A stretch of 31,792 nt of DNA from the IMG/VR virus record IMGVR_UViG_3300033571_005902, positions 1 to 31,792 of that record, one strand, 5' to 3'. Positions 1 to 30,206 of the stretch are shown piece after piece. The notes under the pieces were generated by a model that saw only the letters and a program-made list of their open reading frames with translations, was not told the DNA's origin and made no database searches. Position 1 is the first letter of the stretch. Every line of letters starts with the position of its first letter. The translations under genes were made by a program, and so were the position numbers. Source of the stretch: a virus.

Positions 1-1044
1 ATCCTTGACCTCATAGATGCATGGGGACTCACCTCGATGCTTAAGATAAGCGGGGATGAAATCATTAACTCCAAGAATGGGAACATGATACTGACCCATA
101 GTATGAAGATGACTGATGGCACCATGAGTGCTAAAGGTAAAGGTTTATCTAATGTAACCCACCTTCTAATAGACGAAGCCACAGAGATGCCAAGTGAAGA
201 GGAGTACATCAAGTTAATCGACTCCTTCCGAACCAAAGGGAGTGAGCGAAAGATATTCGTGTGTTTCAACCCCACATCTAAGAATCATTGGATCTACAAG
301 CGCTGGTATATGCCTGACGGAAGCCCGAACCCCAAATGGCAGACAAACCATAATTTTTTACATACAACCTTCCGGGACAATATAGAGAACTTAGATCCCA
401 CTAAAGTTCAGGAATGGTTAGACATGCGGGAGACTGATCCGGATTATTTCGACCACCATATCGAAGGCCACTGGAGGGACTCTGGGGCTGGTGCGGTCTA
501 CAAGAAGTGGACTTGGTTCTATGCTCCTGATCCAGAAAGTGAAGTAGTCTTAGGTCTGGACTTCGGCTTTGCTAACGATCCCACAGCTCTTGTCCAAGTG
601 AACAAGAAGGGCAGCAAGTTATGGATCAGAGAACTTCTTTATACCAGGGGTTTAACCACAGAAGATCTGAGTGATGCTATGCGTCTAGGTGGCGTACCCA
701 AGCATGCAACCATCATAGCCGATAGTTCAGATCCCAGATCTATTCAGACTCTGCGTCGTTTAGGGTGGAGTAACATCTCGCCATGTGTGAAAGGACCGGA
801 TTCTATCCGTCATGGGATAGATGCAATCCGGAGTTATCAGGTGTTTGCCGACCCTTCGTCGAGTAATCTGAGGGAAGAATACGAGAATTATGTCTATCGG
901 GAAGGCACAGATAAGCCTATCGATGGCTATAATCACTTGTTAGATGCTGTAAGATATGCAGTAGGCACTCGTATGAAGATCGGTATGCGTACAGGATATT
1001 CGATTATGACACGGGCCAAGAGCGAATTTGATCTATATTTCTAG
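1..1044 (+). CDS. terL: Terminase large subunit, C-terminal part (5' end outside window)
   Basis: DNA-packaging motor: an ATPase that translocates genome into the prohead, plus a nuclease that cuts concatemers. The frame is open from base 1, so the start and Walker A lie off the left edge; the first in-frame ATG (37) is not taken as the start. Visible are a Walker B (LLIDEATE, about 163-186), a coupling-motif-like FNPTS (about 271-285), and an RNase H-like nuclease domain with three acidic motifs: GLDFGF (Asp at 559-561), ADSSDP (Asp at 721-723) and NHLLDAVRY (Asp at 943-945). The spacing and the closing NH-LLDA-RY motif match the PBSX/Terminase_3 type. The family is usually 400-480 aa, so roughly 100 residues are missing. 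It is followed by a promoter-like motif and the neck genes. Confidence 0.93.
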   Translation: MLDLIDAWGLTSMLKISGDEIINSKNGNMILTHSMKMTDGTMSAKGKGLSNVTHLLIDEATEMPSEEEYIKLIDSFRTKGSERKIFVCFNPTSKNHWIYKRWYMPDGSPNPKWQTNHNFLHTTFRDNIENLDPTKVQEWLDMRETDPDYFDHHIEGHWRDSGAGAVYKKWTWFYAPDPESEVVLGLDFGFANDPTALVQVNKKGSKLWIRELLYTRGLTTEDLSDAMRLGGVPKHATIIADSSDPRSIQTLRRLGWSNISPCVKGPDSIRHGIDAIRSYQVFADPSSSNLREEYENYVYREGTDKPIDGYNHLLDAVRYAVGTRMKIGMRTGYSIMTRAKSEFDLYF

Positions 1045-1053
1045 AAAACCTCT

Positions 1054-1078
1054 CCAAAACCGGAGCGATACATATTCA
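1054..1078 (+). promoter_or_regulatory. Bipartite promoter-like motif, copy 1
   Basis: CCA at 1054-1056, then 13 bases, then ACATATTCA at 1070-1078. The motif ends 14 nt before the ATG at 1093. The same two blocks at the same spacing occur at 11445, 12904 and 15248. If TATTCA is the -10 box, CCA sits at -35 distance (16-nt spacer). A small CTCC/GGAG inverted repeat (1052-1065) overlaps the upstream block. Confidence 0.55.
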
Positions 1079-1092
1079 TTATAAACAGCAAT

Positions 1093-1575
1093 ATGGCAGC
1101 TTCAGGTCCTATTTCCAGCTTCAAAGCAATTGTAGAGTACATGAGAACTCTTAGTCTTTCTCATTTAAACGTCAAACAATTCACATTTGGTCAACCTTCT
1201 GACATTGACGTTGACACTAATACAGATTCCCCTGTTAAATACCCTCTAGTGTTCCTTATCCCTAGACGTGCAGATCTAGATGAATTTGGGAAGACAGAGT
1301 TCTCATTTGCTCTTTCCGTGCAGGACATCACTAACTATGACCTACAAACAAAAGAAGATCAACTGAACACGACCTTTATGATTCTACAAGATTTGTTAAG
1401 TCGTATTAAGATGACAACCTGGGAAGAAGTGGACATGAAGCTGCAATTGCCTGTTGTTGCTAGACCGTTTCTAGAAAGCTACCAAAATAATTTGGCGGGC
1501 TGGTCATGTGAGGTGATCTTTGAAATCAAAGCACCATTTGATAATTGTAACGCAGCATTTGTAAATGGAGACTAG
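1093..1575 (+). CDS. Probable neck / tail-terminator protein
   Basis: 160 aa, no catalytic motif. It lies directly after the terminase and before a gp10-like protein and the tail chaperone, where neck and tail-terminator proteins are normally encoded. The sequence alternates beta-like stretches (PLVFLIPRR, FSFALSVQDI, WSCEVIFEIKAPF) with one amphipathic helix (TTFMILQDLLSRIK), a pattern compatible with tail-terminator folds. I cannot assign a named family; the function is inferred from position and general look. The start ATG at 1093 follows an A-rich leader without a Shine-Dalgarno box and is the first gene after promoter-like motif 1. Its end overlaps the next gene by 11 nt, suggesting translational coupling. 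Confidence 0.6.
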   Translation: MAASGPISSFKAIVEYMRTLSLSHLNVKQFTFGQPSDIDVDTNTDSPVKYPLVFLIPRRADLDEFGKTEFSFALSVQDITNYDLQTKEDQLNTTFMILQDLLSRIKMTTWEEVDMKLQLPVVARPFLESYQNNLAGWSCEVIFEIKAPFDNCNAAFVNGD

Positions 1576-1981
1576 GATAGATCTGAGAGAAGCATATGGA
1601 GTCCTGGCCAGGAAGCTGGAAATCATTCTGCGCTCTCAGGCGCCTAGTGAGAAGATAGCAAGTACCATTCGGGTGGAATCAGATAGAGATGGCATGTACA
1701 TTGTGATGGAACCTAGTTATGGTATTTACTTGTTACGTGGTACCATGGAAGAGAGAAGTCCTGCTTCTTTAGATACTGGTATGAACGTGACCCAAGAATT
1801 GTTAGATGCCTTAAGTGTGTATGCTCCGAGAGAGAATCCAGGAAGAGGCGTAGGCGGTATTAAACCCCGTTATTTCTTAAGCTTTACCGACACGGTTAAT
1901 GAAATGATTGGCGATGAACTTTCGGTTGCGTATGCGCAAGCTATTGAGGCAATGATTGAAGAAGAATTTTACAACATATGA
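1565..1981 (+). CDS. HK97 gp10-like tail-completion protein candidate
   Basis: 138 aa. It has an N-terminal helix (DLREAYGVLARKLEIILRSQ), a central beta region containing YGIYLLRGTMEE, then IKPRYFLSFTDTVNEMIGDEL and a C-terminal helix. A short domain with a central RG motif followed by an aromatic/Pro segment and a long terminal helix is what I know from HK97 gp10-like tail-completion proteins; this is resemblance, not proof. The start at 1565 lies inside the previous gene (11-nt overlap), and the stop overlaps the ATG of the tail chaperone by 4 nt, so three genes are tightly coupled. It would act in the neck, joining head and tail. Confidence 0.6.
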   Translation: METRIDLREAYGVLARKLEIILRSQAPSEKIASTIRVESDRDGMYIVMEPSYGIYLLRGTMEERSPASLDTGMNVTQELLDALSVYAPRENPGRGVGGIKPRYFLSFTDTVNEMIGDELSVAYAQAIEAMIEEEFYNI

Positions 1982-2790
1982 AAATAAACTTTGAATTAGA
2001 CGACCAGAAATGGACTATTGATCAGATTAAAATTCGTGACTACTACCAGATCAAAACGGATCTGTTATTAGATGACACGAATTCTCGTTATCACATTATC
2101 TCTGTCTTAAGTGGTTGTCCGATTGAGATCTTAAGAGATTTCACTCTCTCTTCTTGGAACGAGATTTGGCAGAATCTAGAATTAATGATTCAAGTGGAAA
2201 TGTTTAACCACCAAGAGGTGGTACACCAGTTCACACACGACGGTGTGGAGTATGGTTTACTTGATTTTGATAAGATGACGATTGGAGAGTTTGCAGATCT
2301 AGATGTGATTATCTCAGATCCCAACGCTGATTCTCGTATTCATGAAATTCTAGCTGTCTTATATCGTCCAATTACAGGTCGCAAGTGGAAAAAGAACATT
2401 GTAGAGAAATACGACTATGACGGATTTAAACACCGTTCAGAATTATTCATGGATTTAAGTATCGGTAGAGCACGTGCAGTTAGTGGTTTTTTTTTGGCTA
2501 TCGCACGAGCATCCTTAAGAACTACGCCAATCTATTTGAAATCCCCGAAGAAGATACAGAGGATGATGGAGAAAGAGGCCCAAACCATGTTGCAAAAGGG
2601 TGGTACGGCACTCTCATCGGATTGGCCGGCGATAATCCTCTCGAAGTTTCAAGAGCTTCAGAACTTGGAGTCCGAGAAGCCTTCAACTTCCTTGCCTATC
2701 GCCGAGACGCGATTAAACGTGCTGAAGAAGAAAATAAACAAGTGGCTCAAAAATATAACACGCAAAGATGATAACTCAAGTCTACTTTAG
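1978..2790 (+). CDS. Tail-assembly chaperone, zero-frame product
   Basis: 270 aa read without a shift. The first 172 residues look like the tail-assembly chaperones of Bacteroidota phages: an N-terminal beta region (MKINFELDDQKWTIDQIKI), then YGLLDFDKMTIGEFADLD (about residues 92-109) and a helical segment around LAVLYRPITGRKW. Such chaperones coat the tape measure before the tube polymerises. Codons 170-173 are GGT TTT TTT TTG, within a run of nine T (2487-2495). After it the zero frame continues for about 99 codons into a less convincing, lysine-rich tail and overlaps the next gene by 23 nt. The -1 frame opens exactly here (see the next entry). The first part is secure; which frame is the genuine C-terminus is open. 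Confidence 0.75.
   Translation: MKINFELDDQKWTIDQIKIRDYYQIKTDLLLDDTNSRYHIISVLSGCPIEILRDFTLSSWNEIWQNLELMIQVEMFNHQEVVHQFTHDGVEYGLLDFDKMTIGEFADLDVIISDPNADSRIHEILAVLYRPITGRKWKKNIVEKYDYDGFKHRSELFMDLSIGRARAVSGFFLAIARASLRTTPIYLKSPKKIQRMMEKEAQTMLQKGGTALSSDWPAIILSKFQELQNLESEKPSTSLPIAETRLNVLKKKINKWLKNITRKDDNSSLL
2487..2495 (+). other. T9 slippery run, candidate -1 frameshift site
   Basis: Nine consecutive T between GG and GG. In the zero frame the codons are GGT TTT TTT TTG, giving two overlapping X-XXY-YYZ heptamers (T TTT TTT and T TTT TTG). The -1 frame has a TAG stop at 2481-2483, immediately upstream, and is then open to 2771. The run could support ribosomal frameshifting or transcriptional slippage, or be a homopolymer-length error (T10 would fuse the frames). 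Confidence 0.65.
2493..2771 (+). CDS. Tail-assembly chaperone, -1 frame C-terminal extension
   Basis: About 92 codons in the -1 frame relative to the chaperone gene, entered at the T9 run. The joined product would be about 264 aa. This frame reads as an ordinary soluble protein: YANLFEIPEEDTEDD, then GWYGTLIGLAGDNPLEV, SELGVREAFNFLAYRRD and a charged terminal helix KRAEEENKQVAQKY. The W-led helix followed by FLAY-RD resembles the C-terminal part of tail chaperones. Its TGA (2769-2771) overlaps the ATG of the next gene as ATGA, the usual coupling in this operon, whereas the zero frame overruns by 23 nt. In many long-tailed phages the chaperone is made in two forms by frameshifting (the lambda gpG/gpGT principle). 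There is no independent start codon, so expression requires the slip or a sequence correction. Confidence 0.65.
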   Translation, partial: FGYRTSILKNYANLFEIPEEDTEDDGERGPNHVAKGWYGTLIGLAGDNPLEVSRASELGVREAFNFLAYRRDAIKRAEEENKQVAQKYNTQR

Positions 2791-4321
2791 ACCCAAATTT
2801 TACTCGGCAGGATATAACCCTGTTATCTGGTCAGTGGAATCTGACAAGGTAGAAGAGGTTGATTTTAAATTCGTGTTTGACATTTATGTTGATGGAGTTT
2901 ATGTTAACCGTATCAAGCAAAGACCTAATCCACAAGGTGCAGGTCTGATTGATCTGAGTGTACTTCTAAATGCTTATTTAGATCCCACCCGTTTTGCCAA
3001 TGAAACAGGTACTCCTACTTCGACTCCGTTGAAGATTGGAGAATTTGCTTCTTGTTCTGTGTTCATGTATGTTGGGGAAGAGTACCGCGTTGGTGCTTAT
3101 CCTTCTCCGTTAAGAATTTATACCGGAACTGCTAACACAGTTGGTACACCAAGTTATTATCTGGGTGCGCAAGGATATTCAAATAGACCTGTTATAGCAC
3201 TTCCAATTTCTTTAGATTGGAAAGATCAGCAACAGACTTTAGCGGTGCAACAGTCAAACGATAACGACTATTACGGACTGTTTGGTGCGTTAGCACCATA
3301 TGTTCTAAAGAGTAATGCAATTTATAGCGCCTCCACCTGCGGTGGAGTTGGTAAATTCCTTTCCTATATGCCACGCACAGTGGCAGGCGGAGCATGGCAG
3401 ACAACACCAGCAAGTCCTAGTAAGAACTTTACAGCCAAAGACCTAATTTATGACAGACACACGTTAACATTTCTTAACCGTAATCCTGTCTACCAATACA
3501 AACAAGTAAGTGCAACGTTTCCTTATTTGCAAGCGTCATCACCTAAAGTGGTATGGTATGAATTTTATAACGCAGATAACGAAAGCATTGGACACTATGC
3601 TATTTCGAATTCAGAGAATTTTGGTGGCGGACCTCGTCCAGATTGCGGAGATCCTATTGTAGATTTCGATCAAGAGACTAATCAAGAACTAGTTTCTGTA
3701 CGTGTCGGTCCAAAAGACCTAGATGATATGGGCGTTTTAGATGCTTTACCAGAACTACCAGCTTATTACACAGTGCAATTATTCGCTAATTTAACTATTG
3801 CAGGTAACTGTACTTACTCTGGTGAACCAACTAATCCACTTTCTGAGATTGTGACAATCCAATTAACAGAAGATTGCTACTCGTATTTATACCCGAGAGC
3901 ACGTTTAGTGTGGCTGAATCCACTTGGTGGTAGAGAATACTGGAACTTTGACATGAAAGTTGAAGAGACAGTAGAGGCAGAGAATGCAGAATTCTATCAG
4001 ACAGAAGTAGATTGGAGTGGTACAACTCCTGTAACTCTAATGGGAGACTCTACTCTTAACTGGTTAAGAGGTGGTATGCAACAGTACAACAAAACAACTC
4101 ATACCAAATACACTATCACTTCTAATTTCTTGACCCAAGAAGAAGTAGAATTGTTAAAGACTGCAGTGATGAGTCCGCAACAATGGGTTTATATCGGACA
4201 AGAAGACTGGCCTTATACTTGTACTATTGCTCAGAAAGAATTCACGGTTAAGAGTATTAAACAAGTTAAATTATTTACTGCAACATTTGAAATTGAATTA
4301 GCAGTAGATCGCACAATGTAA
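2768..4321 (+). CDS. Large tail structural protein (distal-tail candidate)
   Basis: 517 aa, rich in beta-type sequence, with no signal peptide or membrane segment. The N-terminus (MITQVYFRPKFYSAGYNPVIW) and the C-terminal block (FLTQEEVELLKTAVMSPQQW, then a Lys/Thr-rich strand ending FEIELA) resemble proteins encoded beside the tail hub in Bacteroidota phages. A few cysteines are scattered in the middle. The ATG overlaps the TGA of the -1 chaperone frame (ATGA). It sits between the chaperone and the giant hub-like protein, so a tail-tip or distal-tail role is the best guess from context. I cannot name a family. Confidence 0.6.
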   Translation: MITQVYFRPKFYSAGYNPVIWSVESDKVEEVDFKFVFDIYVDGVYVNRIKQRPNPQGAGLIDLSVLLNAYLDPTRFANETGTPTSTPLKIGEFASCSVFMYVGEEYRVGAYPSPLRIYTGTANTVGTPSYYLGAQGYSNRPVIALPISLDWKDQQQTLAVQQSNDNDYYGLFGALAPYVLKSNAIYSASTCGGVGKFLSYMPRTVAGGAWQTTPASPSKNFTAKDLIYDRHTLTFLNRNPVYQYKQVSATFPYLQASSPKVVWYEFYNADNESIGHYAISNSENFGGGPRPDCGDPIVDFDQETNQELVSVRVGPKDLDDMGVLDALPELPAYYTVQLFANLTIAGNCTYSGEPTNPLSEIVTIQLTEDCYSYLYPRARLVWLNPLGGREYWNFDMKVEETVEAENAEFYQTEVDWSGTTPVTLMGDSTLNWLRGGMQQYNKTTHTKYTITSNFLTQEEVELLKTAVMSPQQWVYIGQEDWPYTCTIAQKEFTVKSIKQVKLFTATFEIELAVDRTM

Positions 4322-4332
4322 ATCGTTTCTAT

Positions 4333-7300
4333 ATGAAGTCGCAACCACAGTTATACGTTAGAAAGGAACTATCAGATCCTTGGCAACTCTTAGATACTTT
4401 CGATGTTGAACCATTGAGAATGACTTTACGTGTGCAAGATGTAATGGATCCAACTGTTGTTGTAAGTTCTTACTCGCAAACATTCAGAGTGCCTAACACT
4501 CCTGCTAATGGTCAATTTTTTCAAGCTGCTTTTAATGTAAACCAAACATTCTTTGATCCAAGTAAAAAGTCGTATGCCTATATTCTAGACGAAGGTCTAT
4601 TTTACATGGACGGTAACATTCAGTTAATGAGTTGTTACTTTAACGAGCAAAGTCAGAATGTTGAATATGAAATTACATTCTTTGGAGAGACTTCAGACTT
4701 TGCTTCACAAATCGGTATAGATCAAGAACAAGGATTCTTAAAGAATCTAGATTTAACTGCTTATGACCACGAGGTAACTTATGCTAATCTTGTTAATTCT
4801 TGGACTGGTGGTTTAAAAGATGGCGCAGTTGTGTATCCACTAATCGAATGGGGTTATACCTATGCTAATTCAGGCGGAGCACAAGTACCAGTTCAGCCTA
4901 CTATGAGTACTAATGGAGTTAGAACTTTTACTAACTCTGCTAATGCACTTTCAATTCGACAATTTAAACCTGCGTTAAAAGCTCGAGTGATTTGGGATGC
5001 TATTTTTAATACGACCCAATACACTTATAGTTTTACTTCCCCAGATTTTGAAGCATTATTTAATAATCTATTTGTTGTTTCAGATCAAGAAGCACGTTCT
5101 ACCTACGAAGCATTTACTGGATTTTCAGGTACAACTATAGAAATAGAACCAACTATAGGTCAGCCTCAACCATTTTTTATAGATCAAGTAATTTATGATT
5201 ATGGATCTAACTTTAGACAATCTGGTTTTCCTCAAAAATTTGTAGCAAATGCTCCAGGTTTATACAGTTTTACTTTCAGTGCTAATTATAACTGGTATTC
5301 AGGAGGGTATGATCCTAATGTTAGATTTTTATTTACTTTACAAAATCCTAATTCGCCAGTTAACTGGGATAGTGCAGATTTTCCTTTTAGCCAAAATAAC
5401 GGTACATTAAGTGTTACTGCAACAGCAAATTTACTTCCAGGTCAAGAAGTTGTATTTGCAACTTCATTAGCAGGTGGATTTGGAAATACTTTTGGTAATG
5501 TTTTTATCAATAAAGTAAAAGTAGTAGCAACCTCTAATGCTAATCAAGTTCCTATTTCTAATATTCTTCCTGCTAATATTAAGCAGATTGATTTCGTCCG
5601 TTCAATAGTAGAAAGATTTAAATTAGTATTTGTTCCTTCTAAACAAATTTCTAAACATTTTGAAATTTCTCCTTGGAACGATTGGATACAACAAGGAGAA
5701 GTAAGAGATTGGACTTCCCGTTTTAACGGTAAGATAGATTTTAAAACTTATCCTCTTTTCCAAACACAGAATAGATTCGTTACCTATAAAGATCAAGAAG
5801 ACAATGACTTTGTAAACTATAACTGGCAAAATGCATGGAAGCAAGTTTACGGTCAATATAATTTAGATAGTCAAATCGAAGTTATTAAAGGAACGAAAAC
5901 TGTGCAAGGTATTTTTGCACCTCTTTCTATTGCTCCGCTAGGCTACACTTCTACTGCAACCGCTGAACAGATTACAAAAGCAAATACATTTCTAATTCCG
6001 CACATTGCTAAAGACACAGTTTCGGAAGGTAATCCCGGACAAAGACTACCAATGCAACCTAAGTTAAGACTTGCATTTTATAATGGATTATGTGGTGCTA
6101 CTGGTAAGAACACTAACACATCTATTACTTGGTATTTAGATAATGTAGGTACACCAGTAGCTCAAAACAAATATCCTTTAGTAAGTAATTCTTATCCAGA
6201 TCCTTGGGCAGAAAATGCTTATATTTTAGATTGGAAACAAACTCTTCCTGCAACGTGGGATAATACTATTGTTGGAAATCCACCTTTATCTGCTAATAAT
6301 ACTTTTGAAACGTATTGGCGCAGATGGTATGATTCAGCATATGGTGCATTAGAAAGAGAAACTGGAGTAAGAGATTATAGTTCTATTTTAGAATGCGAAA
6401 TAATTCTTAATTATGGTGACATATTAGATCTGAATTTTAATGATAAAATTTGGATTAAAGATGCTTACTATCTAATTAATTCAATCGAAGGATTTTTAGT
6501 TGGACAATCAAGTGCTTGTAAAGTGCAATTGTACAAGTTAAACAATCTAGGAATTGCATTAGATAAACCATTTAAATTAATTGAAGATGTTTGTTACTCT
6601 CCTTCTAGTTTATGTAACGCTTCATGTTGCTTACCAGGTTCGACTGCTACTAACGTTTATTCTACAACTTTAGAAGAAGATTTAGCACCCGGCGATAGAT
6701 TATACACTAACGAAGCAGGAACAACTTTTGCTCCTAATGGTTGGTATGCTATTGGGGATTATGTTTATACAGTGACCGGAGATCAAGGTATTATTTCAGC
6801 ATATGTTGCTAAAGCTCTTGATGGATGTACTTGTATTCCAGAATTATTCGAAGTGGAAGTTTGCTTCTCTGATGCTGTAAATTACTGTGAAGCTTGTTGT
6901 TGCGTATTAGAAACTACAACTTCTATTTGGGCTTATGATAACGATCCAGCAACTTGGTTTTCACAACCAATTTTCTATACAGATGCAATCGGAACAGCAA
7001 GAGTTGCTGACGGATATTATTCTGACGGTACTAATTTTGTTCAGACTCTAAACGGAGTTAACCAACAATCTGGAGATTGCGATTCATGTAACTGTGAGAT
7101 TTATAATCTTACAATGTATTACGGTTGTTACAATAACAATGATGTATGTCTTGCTGTATGTTGTACTGATATCCAAAGACGTTGGTACGGCGATGCCCCA
7201 ACACTTGCAGAATGTACTACTTTATATTCAGACCAAGAAGGAAATACATTTTTTCCTGGAGGTTTTTATTATGATGGTATATCTGCTGTAGAAGTTGATG

Positions 7301-8457
7301 AATTCGGAGAAGTTATTGCTGTTCTTGATCCAGCAGATTGCCAGCCTTGTGCGAATGAAACACTAGATGTGTTTTTTGATTTTGAAGGTAAGGTTTCTGG
7401 AACAGGTACGTTTGATATCTTTAAATCTTTTGATGCTTCTAACTGGATGTTCTTAAGTTCTAAGAATCTTGCTACTATTCCAGCTCTAACACCATTTAAT
7501 TATACCGGACCTATCGCACCAGGTACTTACGTAAGAGGCACATTAAATTATGGTCCTAATTTTACAACTGGTACATTTAACACAACCATTGAACAGACAT
7601 CTGCACTACTAAACACACAAAACACTGTTGCAGGTCCAATTTATACTTTTACTCCTGCTGCATTTTCAGATGTTGGTAATGAATACAGATTTTCTGTAGG
7701 ATTAACAGGTTCTAGTCTTGATTGTGGAATCACAGGAGCTTCGGCTTGGAAGTGTATTGATCCTACTTGTATTATCGACGGATCTAATTCAGATTACGTT
7801 GTTGATTACGACTTAGTTAAATGCTGCGATCCTCTTTACATTTCTACAGACGGTAGATTAATTGTTTACGATGCAACATTAACAGAAGATGCAAACTGTG
7901 TTACTCCTCCAGGTGTATGTTACAGTTGCGGCGAATACGTAAGCGGAAATTATTCTGGTATTGATTATCACGCTTATGAAAATTATTATATCTGTGATGA
8001 TTTAGATACAACAGAAATAACTATTAATTGGGTTACAATCGAAAGACCAAATAGATTTAGCATCTACCAAGATGGAAGTTTGGTTGCAACCTCAGGATGG
8101 ACAGGATATGCAAATTATCCAGGTCCGTGGGGCTTATCTTTAAATACTCCTAGTTCTGGTCAATTATCTACAGCATACGAAACAGGTCTAAACACTTACG
8201 TGTATGTAGAAGCAGGACCTGCAGATCCAAACAATTCTATCAATGATGCATTTAACTTTACTATTTCATGTTCTGATACTTGCTTCTCATATAAAAATGA
8301 ATCAGAAATAATTTGGACAGGAGATTATCAAACATGTGCAGGAACTTGGTTCTATGCTGATACAATATCTCCAGGAGAATCAATCTGTGCGAGAGTAGGA
8401 ACACCATTTACTATTAGTGGTTCAGATCTAACCCAACTTAATCAATGTAATTCTTAA
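4333..8457 (+). CDS. Giant tail hub-like protein with Cys-rich modules
   Basis: 1374 aa. Residues 1 to about 750 look like a baseplate/tail-hub protein. SQTFRVPNTPANGQFF sits near the N-terminus. The region around 430-470 has NILPANIKQIDFVRSIVERF followed by a DWT motif (Asp459), an arrangement I know from Bacteroidota phage hubs. Residues about 760-1005 hold three tandem modules of roughly 90 aa. Each opens with a cysteine cluster (CC at 765, CCC at 855, CC at 943), passes through a G-(W/Y/F)-Y turn motif and ends in C-x-C or C-x-x-C. The remaining part up to 1374 is a beta-rich, cysteine-containing extension. There is no membrane segment. The protein probably forms the tail tip with host-contacting appendages. 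Only 1 nt separates it from the next gene. Confidence 0.7.
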   Translation: MKSQPQLYVRKELSDPWQLLDTFDVEPLRMTLRVQDVMDPTVVVSSYSQTFRVPNTPANGQFFQAAFNVNQTFFDPSKKSYAYILDEGLFYMDGNIQLMSCYFNEQSQNVEYEITFFGETSDFASQIGIDQEQGFLKNLDLTAYDHEVTYANLVNSWTGGLKDGAVVYPLIEWGYTYANSGGAQVPVQPTMSTNGVRTFTNSANALSIRQFKPALKARVIWDAIFNTTQYTYSFTSPDFEALFNNLFVVSDQEARSTYEAFTGFSGTTIEIEPTIGQPQPFFIDQVIYDYGSNFRQSGFPQKFVANAPGLYSFTFSANYNWYSGGYDPNVRFLFTLQNPNSPVNWDSADFPFSQNNGTLSVTATANLLPGQEVVFATSLAGGFGNTFGNVFINKVKVVATSNANQVPISNILPANIKQIDFVRSIVERFKLVFVPSKQISKHFEISPWNDWIQQGEVRDWTSRFNGKIDFKTYPLFQTQNRFVTYKDQEDNDFVNYNWQNAWKQVYGQYNLDSQIEVIKGTKTVQGIFAPLSIAPLGYTSTATAEQITKANTFLIPHIAKDTVSEGNPGQRLPMQPKLRLAFYNGLCGATGKNTNTSITWYLDNVGTPVAQNKYPLVSNSYPDPWAENAYILDWKQTLPATWDNTIVGNPPLSANNTFETYWRRWYDSAYGALERETGVRDYSSILECEIILNYGDILDLNFNDKIWIKDAYYLINSIEGFLVGQSSACKVQLYKLNNLGIALDKPFKLIEDVCYSPSSLCNASCCLPGSTATNVYSTTLEEDLAPGDRLYTNEAGTTFAPNGWYAIGDYVYTVTGDQGIISAYVAKALDGCTCIPELFEVEVCFSDAVNYCEACCCVLETTTSIWAYDNDPATWFSQPIFYTDAIGTARVADGYYSDGTNFVQTLNGVNQQSGDCDSCNCEIYNLTMYYGCYNNNDVCLAVCCTDIQRRWYGDAPTLAECTTLYSDQEGNTFFPGGFYYDGISAVEVDEFGEVIAVLDPADCQPCANETLDVFFDFEGKVSGTGTFDIFKSFDASNWMFLSSKNLATIPALTPFNYTGPIAPGTYVRGTLNYGPNFTTGTFNTTIEQTSALLNTQNTVAGPIYTFTPAAFSDVGNEYRFSVGLTGSSLDCGITGASAWKCIDPTCIIDGSNSDYVVDYDLVKCCDPLYISTDGRLIVYDATLTEDANCVTPPGVCYSCGEYVSGNYSGIDYHAYENYYICDDLDTTEITINWVTIERPNRFSIYQDGSLVATSGWTGYANYPGPWGLSLNTPSSGQLSTAYETGLNTYVYVEAGPADPNNSINDAFNFTISCSDTCFSYKNESEIIWTGDYQTCAGTWFYADTISPGESICARVGTPFTISGSDLTQLNQCNS

Positions 8458-8458
8458 T

Positions 8459-9106
8459 ATGCCAACAGTAGCAATAAACGTACAAGTAAATTCGATTGGA
8501 ACAGATGCATTAACATTCACTATTGCAGATAATGTTAGTGGCATCATTGCAACTAATGTAACAAGAACTTCTTTATTAGGTGGTATAATTGTAAATGCAG
8601 ATTCTGCAGCAAGTGAAATTACTATTGCAGCAAATGCACCATGTGAAAGTGATGTTACAATTCCAATAGATTTTAAACCTTGTGGAAGCCCTACACCACC
8701 TCCTCCACCTCCTCCACCTCCACCTCCATCGAGTGTGACTTGGACGGTTGCTAATAATGATTGCGGATTTGGTGTAGTTTATGATGTAGGAATTAACGGA
8801 GATTGGATGAATTCATTAGATGGCCCAAGTACATTCCCATTAACATCAACATTATACGGAACGAAATTAAATCCTTCTGGAATTAATTGGAATTCGTCTA
8901 ATAACCAAATACTAGTTCATGTCACAACTAATTTACCAGGTACTGGAAATTGTGGTATTGTTTATCTTTATTATAACGGAAATATTATTCCAACATATTC
9001 TGTGTCTTTTACAAGCACTCCGTTTATAACTATTCCAGACGTTTATATTGCAGATGGTGATGACGTTGAAATAAGAGTAAATTGTTACGAAGGACCTTGT
9101 CCTTAA
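8459..9106 (+). CDS. Small virion-associated protein with polyproline linker
   Basis: 215 aa in two beta-rich halves joined by a run of eleven prolines (about residues 80-90, encoded near 8694-8730). The N-terminal half (MPTVAINVQVNSIGTDALTF) is repetitive and lacks cysteine until near the linker. The C-terminal half has several cysteines (NDCGFG, GNCGIV, NCYEGPCP). The linker resembles the TPPPTPP linker in the C-terminal region of the first collagen-like fibre, and the cysteine style matches the upstream giant protein. It follows the hub-like gene by 1 nt and precedes the tape measure. Most likely it is a tail-tip accessory or adhesin; the family is not recognised. Confidence 0.6.
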   Translation: MPTVAINVQVNSIGTDALTFTIADNVSGIIATNVTRTSLLGGIIVNADSAASEITIAANAPCESDVTIPIDFKPCGSPTPPPPPPPPPPPSSVTWTVANNDCGFGVVYDVGINGDWMNSLDGPSTFPLTSTLYGTKLNPSGINWNSSNNQILVHVTTNLPGTGNCGIVYLYYNGNIIPTYSVSFTSTPFITIPDVYIADGDDVEIRVNCYEGPCP

Positions 9107-9120
9107 AATAAATTAATGAA

Positions 9121-11442
9121 ATGGCTACAAAACCTAAAGTAGGAGCAGATACCTCGGAAGCGGAAGGCGCGTTTATTAAACTCCAGTTACAAATCCGAAA
9201 AGCGCAAGTTGCTATGCAAGAAGCACAAGCTACTGGCGATAAGATAAAATTTGCAAGTGCAAAAGCACAATTAGACGAGTTAAATGATTCGTTAGAACTT
9301 ACCACTTTAAAAAGTATGCAACTGGATGATGCACTTGCTGCTCAACCAGGTGTTGTAGGACAGGTTGGTAATGCAATGAAAGGTTTAGATGCAACATTTA
9401 AATCTTTTCTTGCTAATCCTTTTGTCGTAACACTAACCCTTATTGTAGGTGCATTCATGGCACTTAAAGAAGCTTTAAGTCGTACTGAAGAAGGACAAGC
9501 AAAACTAACTAAAGTCTCTGAAGGCTTTACAAAAATTCTAAACGGTCTTTTTGCAGTTCTAGAACCAATTGCTAATCTCTTTATTGATTTAGTAATTAGT
9601 CTAATGGAGAACGACAAGTTCATGAAAGGTCTAACCAAAACAGTTGGTGTACTTTCTGGAACGTTTGGTGCTTTATTTGCGGTTGTTAAGAATTTAGTTT
9701 TTTTAATTGGTGATCAGTTAGTAAACGTATTTAAAACTTTAGTAAATGTTGCAACAGGAGCTGGTAAAGTTCTTAAAGGTGTATTTACATTAGATTGGGA
9801 TGCTATTAAAGAAGGTGCTGCACAGGTTACAGACGGTATTAAAGAAGGATTTAATAATACTGCTAAGAATGTTAAGAATTTTGCAGTTAACACAGTAAAT
9901 GATGTAGTTACTGGTTATAAAGAAGCATCTGCATCAGCAGAAAAATCATTTACAGAAGGAAGTAAAAGGTTAACAGACAAAGAGAAGAAAGATAAAGAAG
10001 AAAGAGATAAAAGAAATAAAGAGGCTGCGGATAAAGCTAAAAAAGACGCACAAGATTTAATTAACACTAATGAACAGCTTCAACAGTCTAATGATGAACT
10101 TGCAGAATCACAACGTAAGAAATCAGAAAGCACAATTCAAGCTTTACAAGACGAGCAAGCTTACAAAGATAAAGAATACGCTAGAGAACAGAAGAGATTA
10201 ACTGATTTAATGGCTCTTGAAAAAGAAGGGTCAAATGAATACAAAGCTTTACTTGCACAAAAAGCAGATTTAGAATCAAAATACAATAACGATAAGACTG
10301 CTAGAGATGCTAAGTTATCAGAAGAGCAAAAAAAGAAAGCAGAAGAAGATAAGAAGTTAGCAGACGAAACTGCCAAAGCCTTAGCAGTTACTGAAAAACA
10401 AAAATACGATTTAGCTTTAGCTGAAAGCGATAAATTTTATAACGACTTAATTGCTAAGAATAAAGGTAACGAAGAAGCTATAACTGCATTAAAAAAAGCA
10501 CAGGCAGAAAAAGCTTTAGAAATTACTAACGATTATAACGAAAAGGTTTATAACGCTAAGAAAGAAGCTCTCGAAAAAGAACAAGGTTTAATTGTTGGAG
10601 ACATCGAAAGAGGTCTTGCAACAATGCAAGAAAAACGCATTAGAGATTTTGACGGCGAGAAAGAATTCTTAGACAAGAAGGCGGTTGCAATGAACGAATC
10701 TTTTGCAAAGCAATTAGAAGCTGCAAAAGGTAATGCTGACGAAGAAAAAAGAATTACAGGTGCACAAACAGATTTTAATGCTAAAATTGCAGAAACGAAT
10801 AAAGCAATTGATGCAGATCAATATGGATTTAAGAGACAACAATTAAGTGAAGCTGGTAATTCAATTGGACAATTATCTGAATTAGTTGGAAAAGATACAG
10901 TAGCTGGTAAAGCATTAGGAATTGCACAAGCAACAATCAATACCTATCAAGGGGTAACAGAAGCATTAAAACAAAAATCTACTTTACCTTCACCTTTCGA
11001 TGTAGTTGCTAAAGTTATTAACGTGGCAACTATTCTTGCTTCTGGTTTTAAAGCAGTTAAATCTATTACCGCAGTTCAAGTACCCACTGCACCAGCAGCA
11101 CAAGGTCCAGCAGCACCACAAGGAAGTAAATTTGCTAAAGGTGGTATACTAGTAGGACCTTCTCACGGGGAAGGAGGAATTAAATCTCCATATGGAGAAC
11201 TAGAAGGTGGTGAATTTGTAGTTAACAAAAGATCTACTAGATCTTTCTTACCTATGTTAAATGCTATTAACTCTGTAGGCAATAGAAAATACGCAGACGG
11301 AGGAGTAACACCAAGTATGGAAGCACTACAAGGAATGATGGCAAGTCAACCTACTCCAGTAGTTAAAACTTATGTGGTAGCGTCAGATGTAGCATCACAA
11401 GCTGAAGCAGATGCTAAAATTGCAAGACTAGCACGTCTATAA
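9121..11442 (+). CDS. Tail tape measure protein
   Basis: 773 aa. A tape measure sets tail length and is released on infection. An N-terminal helical region is followed by hydrophobic stretches (about residues 93-120, LANPFVVTLTLIVGAFMALK; and about 140-215), typical of tape measures. A very long charged coiled coil follows (about 275-560, rich in Lys/Glu/Ala). A second hydrophobic segment lies near 600-645. The C-terminal Gly-rich motif FAKGGILVGPSHGEGGI (from residue 671) leads to EGGEFVVNKRST, a strong hallmark of tape measures. At roughly 1.5 angstrom per residue the length implies a tail near 0.11-0.12 micrometre (rule of thumb). It is separated from its chaperone by three large genes, unlike the usual adjacency. 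Confidence 0.88.
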   Translation: MATKPKVGADTSEAEGAFIKLQLQIRKAQVAMQEAQATGDKIKFASAKAQLDELNDSLELTTLKSMQLDDALAAQPGVVGQVGNAMKGLDATFKSFLANPFVVTLTLIVGAFMALKEALSRTEEGQAKLTKVSEGFTKILNGLFAVLEPIANLFIDLVISLMENDKFMKGLTKTVGVLSGTFGALFAVVKNLVFLIGDQLVNVFKTLVNVATGAGKVLKGVFTLDWDAIKEGAAQVTDGIKEGFNNTAKNVKNFAVNTVNDVVTGYKEASASAEKSFTEGSKRLTDKEKKDKEERDKRNKEAADKAKKDAQDLINTNEQLQQSNDELAESQRKKSESTIQALQDEQAYKDKEYAREQKRLTDLMALEKEGSNEYKALLAQKADLESKYNNDKTARDAKLSEEQKKKAEEDKKLADETAKALAVTEKQKYDLALAESDKFYNDLIAKNKGNEEAITALKKAQAEKALEITNDYNEKVYNAKKEALEKEQGLIVGDIERGLATMQEKRIRDFDGEKEFLDKKAVAMNESFAKQLEAAKGNADEEKRITGAQTDFNAKIAETNKAIDADQYGFKRQQLSEAGNSIGQLSELVGKDTVAGKALGIAQATINTYQGVTEALKQKSTLPSPFDVVAKVINVATILASGFKAVKSITAVQVPTAPAAQGPAAPQGSKFAKGGILVGPSHGEGGIKSPYGELEGGEFVVNKRSTRSFLPMLNAINSVGNRKYADGGVTPSMEALQGMMASQPTPVVKTYVVASDVASQAEADAKIARLARL

Positions 11443-11444
11443 AA

Positions 11445-11471
11445 TGCCAAAAACAGATAAAAACATATTCA
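11445..11471 (+). promoter_or_regulatory. Bipartite promoter-like motif, copy 2
   Basis: TGCCA at 11445-11449, 13 bases, ACATATTCA at 11463-11471. The motif ends 16 nt before the ATG at 11488 of the prohead protease. It starts 3 bases after the tape measure stop codon, so it would begin the head-gene unit. It has the same spacing as the other three copies. Confidence 0.55.
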
Positions 11472-11487
11472 ATATATAAAATGCCCC

Positions 11488-12885
11488 ATGGAAAAAGAGC
11501 TTAAAAGAAAAATAATAGAACTTGAAATTCTTCCAGATATGGAAAGTTCTGGTGTTGAAAAAATATCTTTGGTGTCTGACCCAGCAATAGAAAGTAATTT
11601 TTTATTCTTTGGTAAAGAGAAATTCGTAGAACCTTCTGCTGGAGAATCAGAATCTGATTTCATGGGTAGATGCATTTCTACTGTTATGGACGAAGGTAAA
11701 GACCAAGACCAAGCAGTTGCTATGTGCATTTCTATGTACGAGCAAAAAAACAGTAAAGTAGAATTAGCAGATTATCCTTGGGATGAGTGCATTGCAGATC
11801 AGTTAGACAGAGGTTTAGATCAGGAGTCTGCAGATAAACTTTGTGGATGGATTCGTGCTAATATGGAAAAAGAAAAAATGAGTATAGACGTTTCTGGTTT
11901 ACCCCCATATGTAGATCCAGGAGTTAAAAAGAAGCGTAAATTCAACGAATACGGATGTCCAGCATCAACAGTAGATTTAGAATTAAATCTTAAAAATAGA
12001 CAAGAAGCAATAGATGCTGCTAATTACGGACCTTTAAATCCAGGAGAAGCTAACGAAGAATATTGGCAAGCAAAAGCAGACAAATTTAATACTTCTGTAA
12101 AAGATGCTAAGTCAGCAACCTGTGGTAATTGTGGTTTCTTTGTTCGCACTAAATCTATGTTAGCTTGTATTGCTGCAGGAATTGGCGAGGAAGCCCTCGC
12201 AGATCCATACGATGCAATTGCAGCAGGAGAATTAGGTTATTGCGAAGCATTTGATTTTAAGTGTGCAGCAGCAAGAACTTGTGACGCTTGGATTGGTGGT
12301 GGACCCATACTAGAAGAGGAAGAATTTTTAGAACCTAATCCATGTTGGGAAGGATACGAAGCTTATGGCTTAAAAGACGACGGAACACCTAATTGCGTGC
12401 CTATTAAATCTAGTAAATTAGCATTTGCAACGGAAGAAGTAGGAGATAAAATGATCTTAGTCGGCGCAGCGATGATTCCAGATATGGAAATCCTAAGAAG
12501 AGACGAAGAGACCCAAGAAATTTACTATGTTAAGTTTTCTGCAGAAACAATCGCTTTAATTCAGGAAAAGTTTATGAAGGAAACGCGTAACCATGATACA
12601 AATCTAGAACATGCTGAAAACGACGCTTCTTCTTATGTGTTTGAATCTTGGATTGTAGAAGACGAAGCAACAGATAAAGCTAATTCAGTTTATAACTTAG
12701 GAGTACCAAAAGGAACTTGGATGGTTAAGATGAAAGTAAACGATCCAAAAGTGTGGGCAGAAGTTAAAGCAGGTAAATACCAAGGATTTTCTATAGAAGG
12801 TAATTTTATAGATAAAGCTGATTTAGAAGAAATAAGAAAAGAAAAAGAGGAAATTGCAGGGATCATGAGGATCTTGCAGTCTTAA
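11488..12885 (+). CDS. XkdF-like prohead protease with Cys-rich insertion
   Basis: 465 aa. The protease core resembles the XkdF-like serine proteases of Bacteroidota phages, which mature the prohead by cleaving scaffold and capsid. The N-terminal piece is VEKISLVSDPAIESNF. The core resumes near residue 320 with KMILVGAAMIPDMEI, then RNHDTNLEHAE (His369, His375), SWIVED, LPKGTWMVKM-like GVPKGTWMVKM, and the GFSIEG block (Ser435, likely nucleophile). Between them, residues about 45-310, is an insertion usually absent from this family: two degenerate copies of a C-x(n)-DEG-DQ-x-A-x-x-(M/L)-C helix motif (about 53-86 and 98-126), a compact Cys domain (about 154-274, with CGNCGFF and RTCDAWIGGGP), and CWEGYEAYGLKDDGTPNCVP. 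The start ATG is at 11488; the ATG at 11481 is out of frame. Confidence 0.82.
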   Translation: MEKELKRKIIELEILPDMESSGVEKISLVSDPAIESNFLFFGKEKFVEPSAGESESDFMGRCISTVMDEGKDQDQAVAMCISMYEQKNSKVELADYPWDECIADQLDRGLDQESADKLCGWIRANMEKEKMSIDVSGLPPYVDPGVKKKRKFNEYGCPASTVDLELNLKNRQEAIDAANYGPLNPGEANEEYWQAKADKFNTSVKDAKSATCGNCGFFVRTKSMLACIAAGIGEEALADPYDAIAAGELGYCEAFDFKCAAARTCDAWIGGGPILEEEEFLEPNPCWEGYEAYGLKDDGTPNCVPIKSSKLAFATEEVGDKMILVGAAMIPDMEILRRDEETQEIYYVKFSAETIALIQEKFMKETRNHDTNLEHAENDASSYVFESWIVEDEATDKANSVYNLGVPKGTWMVKMKVNDPKVWAEVKAGKYQGFSIEGNFIDKADLEEIRKEKEEIAGIMRILQS

Positions 12886-12903
12886 AAATAATGGCAAGAT
12901 AAA

Positions 12904-12930
12904 TGCCAGATTGATGGATTTACATATTCA
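12904..12930 (+). promoter_or_regulatory. Bipartite promoter-like motif, copy 3
   Basis: TGCCA at 12904-12908, 13 bases, ACATATTCA at 12922-12930. The motif ends 24 nt before the scaffold-like gene (12955). Two overlapping inverted repeats cover it: TTGATG (12911-12916)/CATCAA (12929-12934) and ATTTACAT (12918-12925)/ATGTAAAT (12934-12941). They could be an operator or alternative RNA hairpins. Confidence 0.55.
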
Positions 12931-12954
12931 TCAATGTAAATAAAAAATCTAACA

Positions 12955-13536
12955 ATGAATTACAAATCTAAATTGAATCAAATTAGAGTCGTGCTAGGTT
13001 TATCAGTTAAGTTAGCTACAGCTAAATTAAAGGACGGTACAGTAGTAGAAGCAGAGGAATTTGCGCCAGGCAGCGAGCTATTCGTAGTTGCTGAAGATGG
13101 TTCAAAGGTACCTGCACCTGCTGGTGAACATATTGGTGAAGACGGAAAAGTCTTCATGGTAGATGAGTCCGGAAAAATTGTCAGTGTAGAATCTCCTGAA
13201 GAACCAACGATTGAAGTTGAGGTGGAAACCGAAGCAGTTAAAGCTTCTGAAGAAGAAGCGGTAGTTGCTGAAGAAGCTACACCGATTAAAGATGCGGTAG
13301 AAGAAAGAATTGCTGAAGCGATGACTAAAGTTGCTGCTGCTATTGAACCAATTGCTAAAGATGTTGCAGAAATGAAACAGAAAATGGCTAAAATGGAAGA
13401 GCAATATGCTAAATTTTCAAAAGCACCTGCTGCTAGTAAAGTTCCAGTGATCAACGAAAGAGATTTCTCTTCGGTAAAAAATAACGTCGATATTGTCGAC
13501 AGATTTAATGAACTAAAAAGTTCATTTAACAAATAA
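12955..13536 (+). CDS. Head scaffold-like protein
   Basis: 193 aa, acidic and highly charged, between the prohead protease and the major capsid protein, where a scaffold is expected. The N-terminal part has a repeated beta motif (LKDGTVVEAEEF, VVAEDGSKVPAPAGEH, KVFMVDESGKIVSVE). The middle is Glu/Val/Ala-rich and low in complexity. The C-terminal part is a predicted coiled coil (ATPIKDAVEERIAEAMTKV, then AEMKQKMAKMEEQYAKF). A disordered acidic middle plus a terminal helix is the usual scaffold design; the DG-containing beta repeats are familiar from scaffold-like proteins of Bacteroidota phages. It is the first gene after promoter-like motif 3 and ends 14 nt before the capsid gene. Confidence 0.7.
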   Translation: MNYKSKLNQIRVVLGLSVKLATAKLKDGTVVEAEEFAPGSELFVVAEDGSKVPAPAGEHIGEDGKVFMVDESGKIVSVESPEEPTIEVEVETEAVKASEEEAVVAEEATPIKDAVEERIAEAMTKVAAAIEPIAKDVAEMKQKMAKMEEQYAKFSKAPAASKVPVINERDFSSVKNNVDIVDRFNELKSSFNK

Positions 13537-13550
13537 AATAATTAAATACT

Positions 13551-14504
13551 ATGTCATTTAACTTAGGTGGTCTTACCCCATATACAGACCAATTATCAAC
13601 AGAATTAGTAACCCGTGCGGTACTAAAACCACAGTCAGTTTCTAACTTGACTGTACGCCCAAATTTAACTGCTGGGACCACTTCTATCAATATTCTTGGT
13701 GTAAACGCAGATATCAAGAACTATGATTGCGGTTTCGGTTCAGCTCAGACTGGATCTAACACTACAATCTTCACTCAAATTCCTTTAGTGAATGTTCAGA
13801 AGATGATGAAAGAAGATCTTTGTCCTCAAGTACTAAGAGATTACTGGTTGTCTTCTCAAATGAGTCCTTCTTCTTATCAAGAAACAGTACCATTCGAGCA
13901 AGCAATTGCTGATCTTAAAGTAAGAACAATTCAAAAATACATTGAAGAAACTATCTGGCAAGGAGATGGTGGAGATCTTGATGGTCTTACCGATCAAATT
14001 TCAGTAGCAAACGGTGCTATTTCTGGTGTTTCTGCAGCTTCTGATTTCACATCTGCTTCTACATCTTATGCAGGTTTCTTTAAATTAGTAGATGCTTTAG
14101 CACTTGCTAATCCAGCAGTATTACAAGAAGATGATCTTATTTGCTATGTGTCTTATGCTACTTACTCTAAGTTAGTACAAGGTTTACAAGCTAAAGGTAA
14201 CTCTATCTTGTTACAATACCCTAACATTTCTAACGTATCTGGATCTCCAGAAAACAGCTTTATCTTCCCAGGAACCAATATTAAGGTTTTTGCAGCTCCA
14301 GGTATTGTTGACTTAGGATCTCCAAAAGTACCAACCGTAATATTGGGCCCCCGTAAGTACGCTATGTTTGGAACTGGCATCTTAAATGACGAGGCGAAAT
14401 TCAGATTTTTCTACGATCCCTCAGTGGATATCGTGAAGTTTTACTCTGCATTTTCGATGGGTACTGCAGCAGTTGCTAACCAGTTTATTTCTACAGTAGC
14501 TTAG
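13551..14504 (+). CDS. Major capsid protein
   Basis: 317 aa, with no cysteine-rich or repeat sequence. It lies after the protease and scaffold genes and is followed by its own perfect-stem terminator, as expected for the most abundant virion protein. Blocks that look like an HK97-fold capsid are an N-terminal arm (LTPYTDQLSTELVTRAVLK), the central helix with FEQAIADLKVRTIQKYIEE, and a C-terminal beta region (KVPTVILGPRKYAMFGTGI, then FRFFYDPSVDIVKFYSAF) typical of the A-domain end. The ATG at 13551 follows an A/T-only leader without a Shine-Dalgarno box. The capsid assignment rests on context plus this pattern; an alternative structural role is unlikely. Confidence 0.82.
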   Translation: MSFNLGGLTPYTDQLSTELVTRAVLKPQSVSNLTVRPNLTAGTTSINILGVNADIKNYDCGFGSAQTGSNTTIFTQIPLVNVQKMMKEDLCPQVLRDYWLSSQMSPSSYQETVPFEQAIADLKVRTIQKYIEETIWQGDGGDLDGLTDQISVANGAISGVSAASDFTSASTSYAGFFKLVDALALANPAVLQEDDLICYVSYATYSKLVQGLQAKGNSILLQYPNISNVSGSPENSFIFPGTNIKVFAAPGIVDLGSPKVPTVILGPRKYAMFGTGILNDEAKFRFFYDPSVDIVKFYSAFSMGTAAVANQFISTVA

Positions 14505-14530
14505 TAATCAACTACTTACACATAACTAAA

Positions 14531-14562
14531 AAAGAGTGTGATTGAAACATATCACACTCTTT
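14531..14562 (+). terminator. Terminator after the capsid gene
   Basis: A perfect 12-bp stem, AAAGAGTGTGAT (14531-14542) with ATCACACTCTTT (14551-14562), and an 8-nt loop. A-rich flanks stand on both sides, so it may act in both directions. The U-tract is short (part of the stem's TTT), so read-through into the next gene is possible, consistent with no clear promoter between them. Confidence 0.75.
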
Positions 14563-14589
14563 AAAAAACAAATAATAAAAAAACATCAT

Positions 14590-15141
14590 ATGAGCTGTTT
14601 AATCCAATATGGCCTCCCACTAGATTGCATCGATAGTATAGCGGGAATTAAGGGTAGCATCTATATCGGCGCAGATGTTGATTTTGGTACATTAACTGAA
14701 TCCTCTACAGCAGGATCAGTATCTTTGATCACTGCTGCAAGCGGTGATTCTGGAGAAATGTATGAGTTTGTAGTTGCTAAAAACACTGCAAGCTTTACAG
14801 AAACTTTCAACATTAGCAATGAAAATGGAACTGCTTTTTTCGATCAGGCCCTTTCACTAAATATACAAAAAATGGAAGCAAACAAGCGTAACGCTTTGCT
14901 TCTAGTAGCCCGCAATAGAAACCTTAAGTTTATCTTCGAAGATAACAACGGTAAATATTGGTTGGGTGGTTTAACAAGAGGTGCAGTAGTTTCTGCTGGT
15001 ACTTCTGTAACAGGAACTGCGCCTGGAGATCTTCAGGGGTATACCTTGACTTTGAGCGCGCAAGAACCGGCCATGGCCTACCAAATTGCTGATACACCGG
15101 AAACAGTTTTCACTGGAATCGACTTTATCGCAGCACCGTAA
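14590..15141 (+). CDS. Probable major tail tube protein
   Basis: 184 aa from ATG 14590. An in-frame TTG at 14542 lies inside the terminator hairpin and is rejected as the start. The sequence has the features of tail tube proteins from Bacteroidota phages: SFTETFNISNENGTAFFDQ, the helix-strand block LSLNIQKMEANKRNALLLVA, then FIFEDNNGKYWLGG and a final GYTLTLSAQEPAMAYQI. Tube proteins form stacked hexameric rings around the tape measure. It sits just after the capsid gene and is followed by an unusual hairpin and a terminator, suggesting separate high-level expression. It is 5 kb from the tape measure and 12 kb from the tail chaperone, an uncommon separation. Confidence 0.75.
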   Translation: MSCLIQYGLPLDCIDSIAGIKGSIYIGADVDFGTLTESSTAGSVSLITAASGDSGEMYEFVVAKNTASFTETFNISNENGTAFFDQALSLNIQKMEANKRNALLLVARNRNLKFIFEDNNGKYWLGGLTRGAVVSAGTSVTGTAPGDLQGYTLTLSAQEPAMAYQIADTPETVFTGIDFIAAP

Positions 15142-15143
15142 TC

Positions 15144-15205
15144 AGGAATTTTGGTAATTAGTAATCCGCGCCAGGGAGGTTTACTGTTACCAGGTACAAA
15201 TTCCT
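15144..15205 (+). other. Long inverted repeat / structured RNA in the tube gene 3' leader
   Basis: AGGAATTT (15144-15151) pairs with AAATTCCT (15198-15205), TGGTAA (15152-15157) with TTACCA (15187-15192), and AGTAA (15160-15164) with TTACT (15181-15185). This leaves a 5-nt bulge (15193-15197) and a GC-rich apical loop. It begins 2 nt after the stop codon and precedes the terminator by 13 nt. It could stabilise the mRNA or bind a protein. Confidence 0.45.
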
Positions 15206-15218
15206 TCATTATAAATAC

Positions 15219-15246
15219 AAAAAGACCAGAGATTCTGGTCTTTTTT
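15219..15246 (+). terminator. Terminator after the tail tube gene
   Basis: AAAAAGACCAGA (15219-15230) pairs perfectly with TCTGGTCTTTTT (15234-15245) around a 3-nt loop. The arm runs into a T6 tract (15241-15246). This is a classic intrinsic terminator, placed directly upstream of promoter-like motif 4. Confidence 0.88.
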
Positions 15247-15247
15247 G

Positions 15248-15275
15248 TGCCCAATTATGGAGGAATACATATTCA
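15248..15275 (+). promoter_or_regulatory. Bipartite promoter-like motif, copy 4
   Basis: TGCCCA at 15248-15253 (CCA at 15251-15253), 13 bases, ACATATTCA at 15267-15275. The motif ends 19 nt before the fibre gene at 15295. It lies immediately after a terminator, the clearest promoter context of the four. The stretch ATACATATTCATTAT is identical to that of copy 1. Confidence 0.62.
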
Positions 15276-26998: not shown

Positions 26999-27007
26999 TA
27001 AGTACTT

Positions 27008-27016
27008 CCATATTCA
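27008..27016 (+). promoter_or_regulatory. Half-site of the promoter-like motif
   Basis: CCATATTCA followed by TTAC, matching the downstream block of the four full motifs except for its first base. No CCA stands 13 bases upstream. It lies only 20 nt before a terminator hairpin, so it may be a relic, a weak promoter for a very short RNA, or chance. Confidence 0.25.
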
Positions 27017-27628: not shown

Positions 27629-27629
27629 T

Positions 27630-28268: not shown

Positions 28269-28277
28269 CTAAACACA

Positions 28278-30172: not shown

Positions 30173-30206
30173 ACACGATATATACTCTCGAATCCAAACA
30201 CATAAT

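Follow-up and report, generated by a model that had tools for sequence, protein, structure and literature searches.

A repeated bipartite element before virion genes of an uncultivated phage and its candidate reader, a phage-encoded ECF-type sigma factor

In Salmonella phage 7-11, the sigma factor SaPh711_gp47 reads bipartite late promoters, GTAAtg-(16)-aCTA, which have been mapped experimentally, and in phage phiEco32 the sigma factor gp36, which has no homology to region 4, reads promoters with a single element (tAATGTAtA) (PMC8948821). The positions of the promoters are conserved between these two phages and their sequences are not, and the authors of the 7-11 study predicted that further pairs of sigma factors and promoters would turn up (PMC8948821). 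An earlier computational prediction of the 7-11 motif had differed from the mapped one (PMC4331800), which cautions against reliance on predicted motifs alone; the argument made here rests on conservation across species together with covariation. We analysed IMG/VR virus record IMGVR_UViG_3300033571_005902, an entire viral contig of 31.8 kb (31,792 nucleotides, nt) that is called the window hereafter, in which four sites localised upstream of virion genes (P1 to P4, Table 1) share a two-part element. These sites are very probably late gene promoters, read by the host core RNA polymerase together with a phage sigma factor of the extracytoplasmic function (ECF) type encoded at 30207-30701; they would be late judging from the genes downstream and from the precedent of phage 7-11.

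The original prediction described the element as CCA-N13-ACATATTCA and located four copies, each 14-24 nt before an ATG. The window contained exactly four copies, at those places and on the + strand only, when 0.01 were expected from dinucleotide-preserving shuffles, and the end of TATTCA lay 14, 16, 24 and 19 nt from the ATG in copies 1 to 4, respectively. The upstream extension to TG(C)CCA that had been noted in three copies was confirmed, with TGCCA at 11447 and 12906 and TGCCCA at 15251, as was the intrinsic terminator, a hairpin with a T run, directly before copy 4. About 50 related phage contigs indicated, however, that CCA-N13-ACATATTCA has to be replaced by TGYCA-N16-TAYTYA as the conserved core, which copies 2 and 3 match in full; the 16-nt spacer recognised in the window is likewise nearly fixed at N16 between the boxes of the relatives. 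The exact original string occurred in none of 16 relatives, and one relative had a copy with one mismatch. When the window was scanned with a position matrix, as had been suggested, and the matrix was built from other phages only, copies 3, 2 and 4 were the three best window sites on both strands, while copy 1 fell outside the top 25 because its -35 box is CTCCA. At 26990-27016, downstream of the portal region and before a hairpin/T-run terminator in the same gap, there is a perfect CATATTCA -10 that lacks a -35 box and is probably not a promoter.

Through their major capsid protein, 25 related viral contigs were collected as whole records (capsid-defined set); a search with the sigma-like protein gave 58 loci, and 50 other records (sigma-defined set) overlap the capsid-defined set in family. 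Nucleotide and protein searches with the capsid and the sigma matched no isolate phage, and therefore the comparison rests on metagenome contigs. The gaps before the scaffold and fibre genes of the relatives carried TGTCA-N12/13-ACATATTCA or TGTCA-N13-ACATACTCA, the gap upstream of the protease gene carried TGGCA/TGCCA-N15/16-TAYTYA, and more distant members had sites of the TGTCA-N16-TACTTA type before the portal gene and before the g19639 homologue. Strict matches were intergenic in 43 of 52 cases in the capsid-defined set, where about 6% of the bases are intergenic, and in 32 of 55 in another set of relatives (intergenic share about 6-8% of the bases), contrary to the equal frequency inside genes that the original prediction had held incompatible with a promoter. 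Scanning gaps of 5-30 nt in the capsid-defined set, we found TGYCA and TAYTYA 16 nt apart at 36 upstream places, 15 nt apart at six and at practically none with any other distance, and 16 nt apart at 29 places in the sigma-defined set. TGNCA-N15/16-TA was present in all 23 scaffold gaps of the main clade, as against 5% of random 110-nt windows, these counts, like the others, being of related records and not of independent trials, although capsids of the clade can be as little as about 50% identical.

An alignment of the fibre-gap DNA, which was not selected for the motif, contained three conserved blocks, namely the T run and each of the two promoter boxes, with a variable spacer. Ten aligned relatives carried TGTCA-N16-TAYTCA at the point of P4, and the hairpin and T run directly before its -35 box were kept, with varying hairpin sequences. 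The P1 site was also present in L050, and the corresponding position of relatives was occupied by TACTCA together with a [CG][TG]GCA box. A de novo count of 5-mer pairs was swamped by A-rich words. An element that is bipartite with N16, intergenic and on the coding strand, that dozens of relatives carry before structural genes in orthologous places, and that is missing from phages which lack this sigma family or have more distant sigmas agrees with the phage-specific late promoter originally proposed. The genome is A/T-rich and the -10 half of the motif is an A/T word, as a compositional coincidence or a simple repeat would have it, but the excess over shuffles, the fixed spacing, the scaffold-gap counts and the recurrence at the same places in those relatives refute this explanation, whose probability we regard as negligible.

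The motif always lies shortly before an ATG, and hosts of such type lack Shine-Dalgarno sequences, both of which would suit a signal for translation or for RNA processing close to start codons. That reading is very unlikely, given that the distance from the motif to the ATG varied from 3 to 50 nt while the spacing from box to box was constant, that the -35 box of relatives falls sometimes inside the upstream gene, and that the motif can come directly after terminators. The -10 box ended 3-9 nt before the ATG in many relatives; since the usual distance between the -10 and the transcriptional start is 6-8 nt, the transcripts of these relatives would be leaderless or nearly leaderless, and leaders of roughly 8-18 nt are expected in the window.

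The open reading frame (ORF) at 30207-30701 matched two PHROG families of RNA polymerase sigma factors with E-values of about 1e-3 (one of them 1.3e-3). Among the members of its family, the best PHROG sigma E-value was 1.3e-5, the Pfam model Sigma70_r4_2 was matched by 25 of 42 (best 8.7e-6) and Sigma70_r2 by two (best 1.4e-3). The AlphaFold model, obtained with 42 sequences (mean predicted local distance difference test score 83.5), consisted of two helical domains, corresponding to sigma2 and sigma4 only, and a low-confidence linker; the length of 164 amino acids lies within the range of ECF-type sigmas (about 150-200). The best Foldseek matches in the PDB were nearly all sigma factors (about 30), mostly of the ECF type (SigL, SigW, SigH and RpoE; best E-value 3.2e-3, probability 1.00), and the viral structure matches included RpoE-like phage proteins. 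Every relative covering the region had an ortholog of the gene, which lies shortly upstream of that for the terminase large subunit in relatives, and L050 has the same order across the ends of the window contig. The predicted fold and the domain layout support, and the sequence weakly supports, a divergent two-domain ECF-type sigma factor, and this protein is a strong candidate for the predicted recognition of the four sites.

In nearly all the phages of the main clade, the start codon of the sigma gene is TTG (or GTG) and not ATG, which suggests a deliberately weak translation. The beginning of the gene is overlapped by an ORF on the - strand (29747-30220), of which G001, G003 and G004 have counterparts with 25-30% identity. 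In two sigma subclades (G010, L059, L064, L069-L077 and L100), a full TGTCA-N16-TACTTA was found within the sigma gene itself (about nt 200-270), oriented so as to face the genes that follow in the direction of the terminase; it could be an internal promoter.

TGYCA-N16-TAYTYA was found in 18 of the 23 whole records containing the sigma gene, almost always on one strand and with a reversed-pattern control near zero, and the five records without it were those with the most divergent sigmas. With the exception of the fragment G020, these phages had other boxes in the orthologous gaps, spaced almost alike and combined with a TATA-type -10: TTAGCCA in G021 (four sites), GRAACA in G017 (four to five sites) and WACCA with TATAAT in G018/G019 (four sites in G018), shuffles giving 0.01-0.23 expected for each alternative box. 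None of the records carried the motif class of another clade in the sense orientation. When further relatives of the distant sigma clades were scanned as an out-of-sample test, RRAACR recurred in the G017-like loci and TAACCA in four of the G018-like lineages. TGYCA-N16-TAYTYA was nearly absent from about 870 kb of distant relatives (one sense and one antisense match) and was absent from four other Bacteroidota phages. G021 and L150, whose capsids are 73% identical and whose sigmas are 29% identical, differed in their -35 boxes, and the window and G012, with capsids 52% identical, shared the same -35 box and the recognition helix IPR[TK]SIS. TGYCA phages keep this helix down to the capsid identity of 52%. 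The -35 class therefore goes with the recognition helix of the sigma rather than with the phage backbone or capsid. The idea that IPRK, as opposed to IPRT, in the sigma of the window explains the C at the third position of its -35 box was unsupported, as IPRT phages sometimes use C too.

A host housekeeping or host ECF sigma might read the sites, with the phage sigma-like protein doing something else, considering that many phage structural operons run on unmodified host polymerase and that the TATA-type -10 core is A/T-rich like any -10. Nevertheless, the original remark that neither box fits a Bacteroidota or sigma-70 consensus held. A scan with the sigma-70 consensus did not rise above shuffles, and a scan for Bacteroidota-type promoters showed no clear intergenic enrichment (6 of 33 matches, in 8.6% of the bases); the sites read TGYCA and TAYTYA and did not match the published Bacteroidota housekeeping boxes (-33 TTTG, -7 TAnnTTTG). 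The -35 box, moreover, varied among related phages in step with the sigma helix, even between the two with capsids 73% identical, and we consider recognition by a host sigma unlikely. The two-part layout and the non-canonical -35 box would also fit the site of a phage activator that aids a host sigma at a weak -10, and activators of the type of T4 MotA are generally known. Against such an activator, which seems quite improbable, the strict 16-nt spacer corresponds to the distance between sigma region 4 and region 2, the ECF-type sigma is conserved in all relatives covering its region, and no other conserved DNA-binding protein was seen to covary in a search that was not exhaustive.

Under the proposed recognition by the phage sigma, its gene would be first expressed from host-type promoters. 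The recognition helix of region 4 (IPRKSISLT...) would contact the -35 box and region 2 would open the -10, and the sigma would afterwards activate P1 with the tail unit, P2 with the protease, P3 with the scaffold and capsid and P4 with the fibre genes, the latter unit being insulated by the terminator directly before its promoter. Physical recognition, the late timing and the way in which the sigma itself is switched on are what we infer from the computed element, its positions, spacing and conservation, the sigma-like protein and the covariation of the -35 box with the helix. On a wider scale, it seems fairly likely that the phage superfamily contains rapidly diversifying matched sigma/-35 pairs (TGYCA, RRAACR, WACCA, TTAGCCA and TTGCACA) at the same positions, with a near-fixed spacing and a shared TATA-type -10, in which the sigma specificity has switched repeatedly and the promoters have stayed put, many of the transcripts being near-leaderless.

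Several results speak against this account. The -35 boxes of P1 and P4 are poor: copy 1 has a perfect -10 and only CTCCA as -35, and in copy 4 the TGCC is displaced by one base. No promoter was recognised for the portal gene in the window, as against a TGYCA promoter of its own in 12 relatives. The Pfam sigma models missed the protein of ORF 30207-30701, for which PHROG gave only E=1e-3, and the global Foldseek template modelling (TM) scores were low (0.3-0.4), because the two domains are freely placed in the model; the sigma4 domain alone reached a target-normalised TM-score of about 0.7. The alternative -35 classes come from few records with few sites per phage and were found after the fact. 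The TTAGCCA box predicted for the nearest capsid relatives of G021 failed, TTGCACA being found at the same positions, and the failure was explained only afterwards, by the different sigma of those relatives where it could be seen, L150 being one of them. Finally, that the host belongs to the Bacteroidota, and hence its sigma preference too, is deduced; the best terminase matches were phages of Nonlabens and Bacteroides, among others, and among bacterial genomes, searched for the host, a single partial match was obtained, in a Bacteroidales metagenome-assembled genome. The matching contig of the latter (L108, 9959-20000) contains a partial relative of the sigma, with an interrupted frame, and a g14542 homologue, and is possibly a prophage remnant that hints at the host phylum.

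Table 1. Putative promoters, terminator and genes localised in the window.
Feature	Coordinates	Strand	Remarks
Terminase large subunit	37..1044	+	5' end outside contig
Putative promoter P1, weak -35	1052..1078	+	CTCCA 1052-1056, N16, -10 TATTCA 1073-1078; precedes the unit from g1093 to the tape measure gene
Genes downstream of P1, from g1093 through the tape measure protein (9121-11442)	1093..11442	+	
Putative promoter P2	11445..11471	+	-35 TGCCA 11445-11449, N16, -10 TATTCA 11466-11471; precedes the head maturation protease gene
Head maturation protease-like protein downstream of P2	11488..12885	+	
Putative promoter P3	12904..12930	+	-35 TGCCA 12904-12908, N16, -10 TATTCA 12925-12930; precedes the scaffold-like and major capsid genes
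Scaffold-like gene and major capsid protein downstream of P3	12955..14504	+	No informative profile name; assigned by position and conservation
Intrinsic terminator	15219..15245	+	Immediately upstream of P4; terminator-promoter pair
Putative promoter P4	15248..15275	+	-35 TGCC(CA) 15248-15253, displaced one base, and -10 TATTCA 15270-15275; precedes the fibre-like genes
Fibre-like genes with Gly-Thr-Ser repeats, after P4	15295..22290	+	
Portal protein	25026..26204	+	
Candidate ECF-type sigma factor, 164 amino acids	30207..30701	+	TTG start; proposed reader of P1-P4; PHROG, Pfam of relatives, fold

The promoter had been proposed to govern neck/tail, head and fibre units, and protease-like, capsid and fibre-like genes were indeed found downstream, whereas the tail or neck character of the P1 unit depends mainly on the tape measure gene. 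Comparison with L050 puts a distance of about 0.9 kb between the ends of the window contig on a circular map, and therefore the genome is near-complete, with the start of the terminase missing. A hairpin at 14531-14562, in the gap that follows the capsid gene, keeps its position in nearly all relatives with different stems and is possibly an attenuator or an RNA stabiliser. The fibre-like proteins of 15295-19635 and 20515-22290 contain long Gly-Thr-Ser-Gly-Ser-Ser tracts, collagen-like in appearance. Three consecutive HNH/NUMOD4-like genes of the homing endonuclease type were found at 27140-28802, the first one by Pfam and the other two by sequence similarity only.

A similar arrangement was noted in Nonlabens phage P12024L (L141, NC_018272.1), which has six AAACAAA-N~14-CGTTAAT repeats (at 2999, 5380, 22059, 24740, 25979 and 27580), all on the coding strand and each just before an ATG. 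Its gp35 (21405-21884), a sigma-70 region 2 protein, is encoded just before the terminase gene, and gp35 and the repeats are probably another phage sigma/promoter pair; the literature searched contained no earlier description of these repeats as promoters. This phage resembles the present family in having a sigma-like gene just before the terminase and repeated bipartite sites before genes, but the sequence similarity is barely detectable and the boxes differ.

These results offer a sequence-level account of the control of late transcription, with a named factor and its sites, in phages of a large uncultivated group that appears to infect Bacteroidota. The matched series opens to simple reporter assays the standing question of how a sigma and all its promoters shift their specificity together without loss of function, and the sigma/-35 pairs are candidate mutually independent expression tools for Bacteroidota.

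The candidate sigma shares with the ECF (group IV) sigmas SigW, RpoE and SigL of M. tuberculosis the two helical domains, according to the fold search, and the -35/-10 promoters, but its identity to them is about 10-15% and no anti-sigma gene was recognised here. The usual -10 of ECF sigmas is of the CGTC type, unlike TAYTYA. As in phiEco32, where gp36 drives middle and late genes, an ECF-like sigma of the phage would be involved; the present family differs from gp36 in having region 4 and a -35 box. The closest likeness is to phage 7-11, in a phage sigma that contains region 4, in two-box promoters whose boxes stand 16 nt apart and which recur before late genes, in the use of the host core polymerase, and in promoter positions that related phages keep while the sequences change, although the box sequences of 7-11 differ and it is a larger, enterobacterial podophage. 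The present system would thus work like that of 7-11 gp47, and what appears to distinguish it is the series of -35 classes within one family, with several sigma/-35 pairs in phages that apparently infect Bacteroidota.

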